Assembly (NCBI GenBank): GCA_022823365.1
Contig: JAJDXG010000014.1
Coordinates: forward strand, 1-64,000
Length of the DNA: 64,000 bases
From: Gemmatimonadota bacterium
GTDB lineage: Bacteria > Gemmatimonadota > Gemmatimonadetes > Longimicrobiales > Gaopeijiaceae
Direction: 5' to 3'
The notes beneath the pieces are model-generated. The model was given only the letters and a program-made list of their open reading frames with translations, did not search any database and was not told where the DNA came from. Of the stretch, positions 32,449 to 36,833 are shown piece after piece. Position 1 is the stretch's first letter, and every line of letters begins with the position of its first letter. The position numbers were made by a program, and so were the translations under genes.

Positions 32449-33792
32449 ATGATGAAGACACCAGTTCGTACCGCCGCGATCACCTTGTGGGGATCGCTGT
32501 TCCTCGTCACGCCGCTCATGGCACAGCACAGAAGCGTCCCGCCCCCCGCGGCCTACGCGATCGAGGGTGTGACGGTCGTCGGACCCGGCCTTCAGGAAGA
32601 GGCGGGCGTCACGGTCATCGTCCGGGGAGGGCTTATCGAGGCGATGGGCGCCGGACTCGAGATTCCCGCCGACGCGGAGCGGCTGGAGGGGGACTCCCTC
32701 TATCTTTACCCGGGACTCGTGGACGCCGATGGCGTGAGCGAGGTCGAGTTTCCCGATGCTCCGGAGGATGGGCCGCCGTCCTGGGCGCCCACGCGAATCG
32801 CTCAGCGCGTCACGCCGTACCGGCGCGTCGCCGACCACGTCACGGCGACCGGAGGCGCGCAGGGCGAGCAGCGAAGGCGCGGGATCGTCGCCGCTGCGGT
32901 ACACGCCGGCGACGGAATCGCCCCGGGGCGGAGCGCGATCCTGCTGAATCGGGTCGACGCCGAGACCTCGCGCGAGTTGATCGCCCGCGCCGACGCCGGG
33001 CTTTCGATGAGCCTCCAGACGGCGCAGGGCGTGTACCCCTCGACGCTCCTGGGCGTGATGGCCACCATCCGGCAGGCGTTCCTGGACGCCGAGCGCCAAG
33101 CCACCCTCGAGAGCGCCTTCGCGAATGGCCGCGCCGGCATGACGATGCCCGACTGGGATCCGGACTACGAAGTGCTGCGCGATGTGGCGTCGGGCGAGAC
33201 GCCCGTGTTCTTCCGGGCGGCGGATTCGGAGGACATCCGCCGGGTGCTCGGGCTCGCGGACGAGATCGGCTTCCGCCCGATCATCGTGGGAGGCGACGAG
33301 GCGTGGATGGTCGCGGATGAACTCGCCGACCGGGGCGTCGCCGTCCTCATCGATACGGACTTTCGCGAACCCGATGAATGGGATCCGGAGAGCGAGGAGG
33401 AACTCGAACCCGCGGCCTTCCGCGAGAAGCGCGAGCTTGAAGCGCTGTACGGCAACGCGGCCGCGCTCGAGGCCGCAGGCGTGCAGTTCGCGCTGACCAG
33501 CGGAGAGGGCGACGCGGACCTGATCGAAGGGGCCCGCAAGGCCGTGGAGTACGGGCTCTCCCGCAACGCGGCCGTCGCGGCCATGACCACCGCTCCCGCC
33601 GAGATCCTGGGGGTGAGGTCGCTCATCCAGGTCGGCGAGGGCCGACCGGCGACCTTCCTTCTGGCTACCGGTCCGCTGCTCGAGGACGGGAGCGAGATCG
33701 CCTACACCTTCGTCGAGGGCAGCTACGAGGTCGGGCCGGGATCCGGCGCCGGCGGCGGCGAGGCCCCCACGGTCAACGTGTCGGGCTCCTAG
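32449..33792 (+). CDS. Amidohydrolase-like exported protein, ends at an in-frame TAG
   Basis: This 447-aa protein has a signal peptide ending PLMAQ and an amidohydrolase/imidazolonepropionase-like fold: ITVV-type start VEGVTVVG, VIVRGGLIEAMGAG, YPGLVDADG and the closing GRPATFLLATG. The metal-binding HxH that normally follows GLVD is absent, so it is unlikely to be catalytic on its own. The last residues are VNVSGS followed by TAG; the same frame then continues EVEVTAQGMTVPMEMEL for 97 more codons, which suggests a Trp-to-stop change in a longer gene. ATG 32449 follows AAGGGAG. The product may support the coupled second amidohydrolase. Confidence 0.75.
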   Translation: MMKTPVRTAAITLWGSLFLVTPLMAQHRSVPPPAAYAIEGVTVVGPGLQEEAGVTVIVRGGLIEAMGAGLEIPADAERLEGDSLYLYPGLVDADGVSEVEFPDAPEDGPPSWAPTRIAQRVTPYRRVADHVTATGGAQGEQRRRGIVAAAVHAGDGIAPGRSAILLNRVDAETSRELIARADAGLSMSLQTAQGVYPSTLLGVMATIRQAFLDAERQATLESAFANGRAGMTMPDWDPDYEVLRDVASGETPVFFRAADSEDIRRVLGLADEIGFRPIIVGGDEAWMVADELADRGVAVLIDTDFREPDEWDPESEEELEPAAFREKRELEALYGNAAALEAAGVQFALTSGEGDADLIEGARKAVEYGLSRNAAVAAMTTAPAEILGVRSLIQVGEGRPATFLLATGPLLEDGSEIAYTFVEGSYEVGPGSGAGGGEAPTVNVSGS

Positions 33793-34086
33793 GAAGTAGA
33801 GGTGACCGCGCAGGGGATGACGGTCCCCATGGAGATGGAGCTCGCGCAGGAAGGGAGCGAGTTCTCGGGCACCGCGGCCGCGGACATGTTCGGTGACGCC
33901 GAGGTGCGCGGCGGACGGGTTTCGGGCAACGAAGTCACGTTCCGCCTGGTCGTCTCGGCGGGCGGCCAGTCGATGGAGTTGTCGTTCGAGGCCGACGTGG
34001 AGGGCGATCGCATGAACGGTTCGGGATCGAGCCCGATGGGAGACTTCCAGATGACGGCCCGACGGGCTCCGGGAGGTGCGCGATGA
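33793..34086 (+). CDS. C-terminal domain of the amidohydrolase-like gene, after an in-frame stop
   Basis: The 97 codons after the TAG at 33790-33792 stay in frame and encode a beta-rich domain (MEMELAQEGSEFSGTAAADMF, GGRVSGNEVTFRLVVS, MELSFEADVEGDRMNGSGS) that ends RRAPGGAR. Similar small beta domains are fused to secreted amidohydrolases. A GTG at 33802 could start a separate 94-aa protein (AGTAGAG precedes it, a weak ribosome-binding site). Its stop overlaps the next ATG as ATGA, so translation must reach here for coupling. Readthrough, reinitiation and recent inactivation are all possible. Confidence 0.6.
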   Translation, partial: EVEVTAQGMTVPMEMELAQEGSEFSGTAAADMFGDAEVRGGRVSGNEVTFRLVVSAGGQSMELSFEADVEGDRMNGSGSSPMGDFQMTARRAPGGAR

Positions 34087-36833
34087 GCATTCGGCACACG
34101 ACGACGATCCGGCACTCGAAGACCATTCGGCGCACGATGACTATTCGAAAGATGGCACGCGCGGCCTTGGCGATCGCGGCGACCGGCCTCCTTTCGGGAG
34201 CCCCTGCCGCGGCACAGGAGTGGGATGTGCAGCTCCCCGCCGACGCGGGCAGCTACCCCACGGGCGATCTGTTCATCAGCAATCTCGAGGCTCTGCACAC
34301 GGCGGCCGGTCCCGTGCTGGAGGGAGTCTCGATCCTCATCCGGGGCGGGATCATCGAGGGCATCGGGGCCGGCCTCACGGCGCCGGAAGGCGTGCGCGTC
34401 ATCGATGGGACGGGTCTCACCGCGATGCCGGGCATCGTCGACGAGCACTCGCACACCGCGCTTGTGGCCGGCAACGAGGGCACCGCGCCCATCGTGCCCG
34501 AGGTGCGGGTCCTGGACGCGCTCACGACCGAGGACTTTGGGATCTACCGGGCGCTGTCGGGCGGGGTGACGACCGCGCGCATCATGCACGGCAGCTCGAA
34601 CCCGATCGGCGGCCAGAGCGCCGTAGTAAAGATGCGCTGGGGGATGGACGCCACGGAGCAACTGCTGATCCCCGGCGCGCCCAGGTTCGTGAAGTTCGCG
34701 CTCGGAGAAAACGTGACCCGAAAGGCTGCTCCGCCGAGCGCCAATTCCCGGTTCCCGATGAGTCGCGCGGGCGTCGAGGCGATCTACGTCGAGGCGTTCA
34801 CCGCCGCGCAGGCCTACCGGGCGGAATGGGACCGCTTCCGCGAGAACCCGGGCGCCTTCCCCGCTCCGCCGCGCCGGGATCTCCGGCTCGAGGCGCTGGT
34901 CGACATCATGGAGGGGCGCATCCGCATCCACGCGCACTCGTACCGCGCGGACGAGATCCTCATGCTCATCCGCGTCGCGGAACGGTTCGGATTCAGGATC
35001 GACGTGTTCACGCACGTCATGGAGGGTTACCGGGTGGCGACCGAGATGGCGGAGCACGGGGCCGCCGGCTCGACCTTCTCCGACTGGTGGCAGTACAAGC
35101 TCGAGGCGTACGAGTCGATCCCGCACAACGCCGCGATCATGCACCAGCACGGCGTGCTCACCGCGATCAACTCCGACATCCCCTCGCTCCAGCCCTTCAT
35201 GCACCGGGAGATCGTGAAGCCGGTGAAGTACGGGGGCGTGAGCGAGCTGGAAGCGCTCCAGATGCTGACGCTCTTTCCTGCCCGGATGATGTACCTGGAC
35301 GACCGGGTCGGAAGCCTGGAGGAAGGCAAGGAAGGCGATGTCGTGCTGCTCGACGGATCACCCTTCGATTCGTTCAGCCGCGTCGAGAAGACGATCGTGG
35401 ACGGAATCGTCTACTACGATGTGGATGACGAGGAGGGGACGCGGGGCGAGCCCGTGCGAGCGGTCACGGATATCGTTGCGGCGCCGGCCACGCCGCGGAC
35501 ATCAACACCTGGCGACGGCCCGGACGCTGGCGATGGCTCGGAGTCGGGAGCCGGGCGCGCGCCCGGCGTGAACGGCGCGAACGGAGAAGCGCGGCCGCTC
35601 CCGCCCGCTGCACAGGAAGCCGCGACGGCCCTGGTGGGCGGAACGGTTCACACGGTGTCGGGCGGCACGATTCCGGACGGGGTAGTGCTCGTCCGGGGCG
35701 GCACAATCGAGGCCGTGGGCACGCGGTCCGAGGTGCAGATTCCCGCCGATGCCGCGCGGGTCGAGGTGACCGGGCGGCATGTCTATCCGGGCATGGTCGA
35801 CCCGTTCACCACGCTCGGCCTTTTCGAGTTCGGCGCGGTCGGCCAGGCCACCGACATCGCCGAGATCGGGGACTACAACCCCCACATCCGCGCGCTCGCG
35901 GCCGTGAACCCCTACTACCCCAGCCTGAACGTGGCGCGGGCCAACGGCATCACCACCGTTCAGACGGCCCAGGGCGGCGGTGTGGTGCGGGGTACCGGCT
36001 CGGTCATCCAGCTCAACGGCGGGGACACCTTCGAGAAGGTGGCCGTGGCTCCGGAGGCGGCCCTGATCGTCGATCTGCCGTCGGGTCCCGAGGGCGACGA
36101 GGATGAAGAGCCGGAGCTCGACGCCAGCGCCATGGAGGACCTCGTCGACCTGTTCGAGCGCGCCCTCGCCTACGGAGAGAACCCGTCCACCTCCGACGAC
36201 CCGACCGCGCCCTTCGAGGCGAACACGTGGGGCGGAGAGGCCGTCCTGCTCGACGCGCTTCAGCCGGCGCTCCGCGGCACGGTGCCGGTCTTCTTCTCGG
36301 TGGACACGGCCTGGGAGATCCGCACCCTGTTCGTCTTCCTGGACGCGTTCCCGGCGATCGACCCCGTCGCGCTGGGCGGGCGAGAAGCCTATCGCGTGGC
36401 TTCAGACCTGGCCGCGCGGAGCATCCCGGTGATCCTGACAGGCACACTCCAGGCACCCGGCGACCGCGATGTCGCCGTCACTTCAGGCTACCGGAACGCC
36501 GGGCTTCTGCACCAGGCGGGCGTCGCGGTCTCGTTCTCGACGGCCAGCGACGCGGATGTCCGCAACCTCCCCTACCATGCGGCGCTCTCGGTGGGCTTCG
36601 GGCTCCCCGAGGATGCCGCGCTGCGTGGCGTGACTCTGGGCCCGGCGGAGGCGCTGGGTCTGGGAGACCTCATGGGGAGCATCGAACCCGGCAAGCGGGC
36701 GGATCTGCTGGTCACGGACGGATCCCCGCTGCAGTCGCTGACGCGGATCGAACGCATGTGGGTCGGAGGGCTCGAGGTGGATCCCCGCGCGAACAAGCAC
36801 GACCGCCTGTGGGCGGCGTTCCGGGGTCGGTAA
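34083..36833 (+). CDS. Exported two-domain amidohydrolase
   Basis: This 916-aa protein fuses two amidohydrolase domains. The first (about 45-450) has the metal ligands: GIVDEHSHTAL near residue 120, RIHAHSYRADEI near 280, DVFTHVMEGY near 307 and INSDIPS near 363, so it should be an active metal-dependent hydrolase of the imidazolonepropionase/prolidase type. A Gly/Ser/Pro linker (residues 465-510) leads to the second domain, which has GGTVHTVSGGTIPDG and YPGMVDPFTTLG but lacks HxH, like the preceding gene. GGGAGGTG just upstream supports ATG 34083; this gives an unusual N-terminus with repeated TIR(H/R) before the signal peptide (ARAALAIAATGLLSGAPAAAQ). Substrate probably a small peptide or amide in the periplasm. 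Confidence 0.85.
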   Translation: MSIRHTTTIRHSKTIRRTMTIRKMARAALAIAATGLLSGAPAAAQEWDVQLPADAGSYPTGDLFISNLEALHTAAGPVLEGVSILIRGGIIEGIGAGLTAPEGVRVIDGTGLTAMPGIVDEHSHTALVAGNEGTAPIVPEVRVLDALTTEDFGIYRALSGGVTTARIMHGSSNPIGGQSAVVKMRWGMDATEQLLIPGAPRFVKFALGENVTRKAAPPSANSRFPMSRAGVEAIYVEAFTAAQAYRAEWDRFRENPGAFPAPPRRDLRLEALVDIMEGRIRIHAHSYRADEILMLIRVAERFGFRIDVFTHVMEGYRVATEMAEHGAAGSTFSDWWQYKLEAYESIPHNAAIMHQHGVLTAINSDIPSLQPFMHREIVKPVKYGGVSELEALQMLTLFPARMMYLDDRVGSLEEGKEGDVVLLDGSPFDSFSRVEKTIVDGIVYYDVDDEEGTRGEPVRAVTDIVAAPATPRTSTPGDGPDAGDGSESGAGRAPGVNGANGEARPLPPAAQEAATALVGGTVHTVSGGTIPDGVVLVRGGTIEAVGTRSEVQIPADAARVEVTGRHVYPGMVDPFTTLGLFEFGAVGQATDIAEIGDYNPHIRALAAVNPYYPSLNVARANGITTVQTAQGGGVVRGTGSVIQLNGGDTFEKVAVAPEAALIVDLPSGPEGDEDEEPELDASAMEDLVDLFERALAYGENPSTSDDPTAPFEANTWGGEAVLLDALQPALRGTVPVFFSVDTAWEIRTLFVFLDAFPAIDPVALGGREAYRVASDLAARSIPVILTGTLQAPGDRDVAVTSGYRNAGLLHQAGVAVSFSTASDADVRNLPYHAALSVGFGLPEDAALRGVTLGPAEALGLGDLMGSIEPGKRADLLVTDGSPLQSLTRIERMWVGGLEVDPRANKHDRLWAAFRGR

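Follow-up and report, generated by a model that had tools for sequence, protein, structure and literature searches.

In bacteria, the usual state of a pseudogene is to carry a single disabling mutation, and many single-mutation pseudogenes are assembly artefacts, a single internal stop being a known error signature (PMC11017572). The locus described here lies in a window of 64 kb (the whole stretch of DNA that was analysed) and resembles the single-nonsense-mutation pseudogenes and truncated alleles of bacteria in that one base likewise puts a stop within a conserved gene that is intact in every other respect. The body of the encoded protein finds its best match, by sequence (E 1.2e-10) as well as by fold search (E 4.4e-8), in a Thermotoga maritima protein of the amidohydrolase superfamily, PDB 3ooq. 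A literature search found nothing on the gene itself.

From the ATG at 32449 the frame reads ...APTVNVSGS, TAG (33790-33792) and then EVEVTAQGMTVPMEMEL..., and past the TAG the same frame is open for 97 codons up to a TGA at 34084-34086, which overlaps the ATG (34083) of the next gene as ATGA. Both the in-frame amber stop followed by an open frame to 34086 and the overlap of the downstream part with the next gene start had been noticed in an earlier sequence-only reading, and both hold at these coordinates. The N-terminus of the protein is signal-peptide-like (MMKTPVRTAAITLWGSLFLVTPLMAQ), suggesting that the product is secreted. The features of the locus, all on the forward strand, are as follows.

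32449..33792, + strand: truncated gene of 447 aa, with a signal-peptide-like N-terminus and a degenerate amidohydrolase-fold domain, ending at a TAG private to this genome
33790..33792, + strand: TAG replacing the TGG (Trp448) of all same-genus orthologues, from orthologue comparison
33793..34086, + strand: undecayed remnant frame (97 codons and TGA) of a C-terminal eight-stranded beta-barrel domain
33802..33804, + strand: GTG, possible re-initiation codon 9 bases past the stop and preceded, at seven bases, by AGGA, from sequence inspection only
34083..36833, + strand: next gene, 916 aa, with two amidohydrolase-like halves

The description of this gene as an amidohydrolase is correct for the fold and fails for the metal-binding HxH motif. 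The Pfam match of the truncated protein itself falls below the cut-off, and the motif expected after the first strand is replaced by DADG or DGDG in the genus and by DAWG in the more distant homologue L037. The window protein differs from 3ooq in having DADG for DAHSH and in lacking the remaining His and Asp candidates of the alignment. Its orthologues, which likewise lack the HxH motif and those candidates, add a C-terminal barrel. Because of these substitutions and absences, metal-dependent catalysis by the body is improbable.

The search for orthologues covered 58 related genomes. Within the genus, six of ten other genomes yielded a close orthologue, with identities of 89-96% across the 447 aa, and two of these orthologues do not differ from each other in this region. 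It had been suggested that relatives be aligned at the stop codon, and that a change of TGG to TAG would account for the interruption, its reversal restoring SGSWEVEV. TGG is indeed present at this codon in all six orthologues and the stop is private to this genome; SGS-W-EVEV is found exactly in five of them, while the sixth (L007) has TGA-W-EVEV, written in one-letter residues. The continued open frame is not a matter of chance, since the six sequences align with it gaplessly across the downstream 97 codons; the terminal stop and ATGA overlap are likewise common to all. The Trp at the start of the tail, which forms part of a G-x-W motif, also occurs in six more distant tail-bearing homologues (L009, L010, L013, L014, L015, and L037). 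Since the orthologues read TGG and the distant tail-bearing homologues have Trp, the TAG represents a private TGG-to-TAG change and not a natural gene end, which is ruled out by the fact that all six same-genus orthologues run through it. Two homologues, L011 and L012, end ahead of the tail and have none. An established split gene, another option of the sequence-only reading, is contradicted, as no relative ends at this position with a separate, independent small gene downstream, and L011 and L012, which end nearby, lack any tail. Neither this gene nor the next one was found as a close full-length orthologue in the remaining four genomes of the genus, one of which is 98% complete, and the pair therefore seems, from this distribution, to be dispensable within the genus. 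The named records of the genus are Gemmatimonadota metagenome-assembled genomes (MAGs), one of them labelled BD2-11 clade. Two public MAG contigs titled Gammaproteobacteria (L032, JAPPJO010000049.1, and L033, JAPPHB010000015.1) fall within this Gemmatimonadota genus by sequence and synteny, and their record titles look mislabelled.

What the stop would remove can be judged from an AlphaFold model of an intact orthologue, in which confidence in the body is low, five of the six sequences being close, and only the tail domain was used. In this model a C-terminal eight-stranded barrel occupies residues about 440-542 (pLDDT about 80), and codon 448 lies inside its first strand (446-454). The tail domain has no Pfam or NCBIfam match. 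On the model, the stop removes an avidin/lipocalin-like barrel and leaves the amidohydrolase-like body whole. A second, weakly similar copy of the tail barrel was detected elsewhere in the genome (L105, G000:C57:42150-42383; 29% identity, E 0.001).

The favoured interpretation, to which we assign a probability of roughly 0.68, is a nonsense mutation, TGG to TAG (G to A), that is recent and private to the lineage and has cut a secreted protein of amidohydrolase fold from 545 residues down to 447. It is proposed that the single G-to-A change turned the TGG of Trp448 into TAG, that translation would then halt where the first barrel strand begins, with loss of the barrel and retention of the amidohydrolase-like body, and that the truncated protein would keep its signal and body and perhaps be partly functional. 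The existence of the naturally tail-less homologues L011 and L012 suggests that the truncated protein may still work. The term "inactivation" applied in the sequence-only reading is too strong, only a C-terminal accessory domain being removed, whereas its option of a very recent loss gains support from the TGG of the orthologues, the private stop and the undecayed tail.

The state of the tail bears directly on the age of the stop. The gene is under purifying selection genus-wide, and comparison of the window with its two nearest distinct orthologues gave dN/dS values of 0.03 and 0.13 for the tail and 0.15 and 0.11 for the upstream part. No further stop or frameshift is present in the tail. When private changes were polarised by unanimity, counting only positions at which all other orthologues agree, the window showed one synonymous and no nonsynonymous change in the tail, compared with 17 synonymous and seven nonsynonymous changes upstream. 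No clearly private amino-acid change was found in the tail; one Ser for Ala is common to the window and L007 and cannot be placed on a branch. With the branch set at half of dS 0.17, neutral drift of the tail over more than about 16% of that length would give the absence of nonsynonymous tail changes a probability under 0.05; the bound is rough, since it presupposes clock-like change and two branch halves of equal length, and it becomes looser if the Ser/Ala change is counted. Relaxed selection, which only an old event would be expected to leave, was looked for as an excess of nonsynonymous change in the tail and was not seen, as would be the case for a very recent event and also for an incorrect base. 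Because the tail shows no decay, either the stop is very recent or the base is in error.

Under the second of these readings, the TAG would be a wrong base introduced by consensus calling or assembly, or one contributed by a minority strain to the metagenome-assembled genome, and the living organism would have TGG and produce the complete protein; this reading is the less probable, although it retains a fair chance. The base is known from the assembly alone, and the undecayed tail, preserved apart from one base in a gene that selection maintains throughout the genus, fits such an error as well as it fits a true mutation. Furthermore, the genome has the appearance of a metagenome assembly (63 contigs, with MAGs as its named relatives), and public assemblies are documented to contain spurious internal stops (PMC11017572). 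However, the 64 kb window is not visibly error-rich and, relative to three relatives, shows no other unexplained interruption of a coding-like gene, and premature stops also arise naturally. When about 40 open reading frames of the three syntenic relatives were compared with the window, the TAG was the sole interruption in a clear coding frame of a conserved gene. A generally error-rich assembly was rejected, the other apparent interruptions being attributable either to shadow frames in GC-rich sequence or to start codons placed too far upstream, as judged by a rough filter based on codon-position GC and residue make-up and not by full gene prediction.

It is unlikely that the gene now yields its halves as two distinct products, with the ribosome stopping at the TAG and re-initiating at GTG 33802 or ATG 33817 so that the barrel is made as a small protein of its own. 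The tail frame is intact, the GTG, 9 bases past the stop, has an AGGA seven bases before it, and GAGGTGA is situated 11 bases ahead of ATG 33817. However, GAGGTGA consists of conserved codons (GAG GTG A..) that are also present in the intact orthologues, no relative has a split gene, and a re-initiated product would come without a signal peptide, without the conserved Trp and without the first half of strand 1, and for that reason would probably be neither exported nor folded. The AGGA is created by the G-to-A change itself, and a gene fission in its very first stage, with one substitution making both the stop and a Shine-Dalgarno sequence from which the barrel is translated separately at GTG 33802, is more doubtful still. 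Readthrough or recoding of the UAG, with the full-length protein still being made, would agree with the open frame and the purifying selection that continue past the stop, but this option of the sequence-only reading finds no support and recoding is rejected as highly improbable, as RF1 (prfA) is present in the genome above its curated cut-off, none of 46 tRNAs (at Rfam-found places, typed by ARAGORN) has a CUA anticodon, TAG is an ordinary stop that ends 11 of 32 coding-like open reading frames in the window (this gene and about ten others), and no relative has TAG at this codon.

If the nonsense mutation is accepted, its effects may extend to the next gene. The first half of the 916-aa downstream protein keeps the HxH motif (DEHSHT) and is the likelier catalyst. 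Its second half, like the product of the first gene, apparently lacks HxH. The tandem genes (32449-33792 and 34083-36833) are possibly a catalytic/non-catalytic pair, in which the truncated product would be the non-catalytic partner of the active-looking downstream enzyme, a partnership suggested only by the operon-like overlap. With the stop in place, some 290 untranslated bases would separate it from the downstream gene, and translational coupling between the two genes is probably weakened. A GGAGGTG Shine-Dalgarno sequence just upstream of ATG 34083 is conserved in the genus, and the next gene, somewhat uncoupled from stop-start translation, would be rescued by this site of its own.

The stop is best regarded as an ordinary recent nonsense mutation, or an assembly base error, at a domain boundary, and not as a recoding event. 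By itself it has little significance, other than as a well-placed example of a C-terminal accessory domain lost through one base, and as a caution that a lone internal stop in a metagenome assembly should be backed by reads. Provided that the base is genuine, this species constitutes a natural test of the dispensability of the barrel, which the two tail-less homologues suggest.

Among known structures, the barrel is matched at Z 10-14 by designed barrels, domains of quinohemoprotein amine dehydrogenases and avidins. The tail of the intact orthologue aligns with avidin/calycin-like eight-stranded beta-barrels over about 90-103 residues, although sequence identity is only about 10-18%, a likeness that denotes a shared fold and shows no function. 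Compared with the single-nonsense pseudogenes of bacteria, the present gene differs in having its stop at a domain boundary, so that most of the protein survives, and in a base that is read from an assembly.
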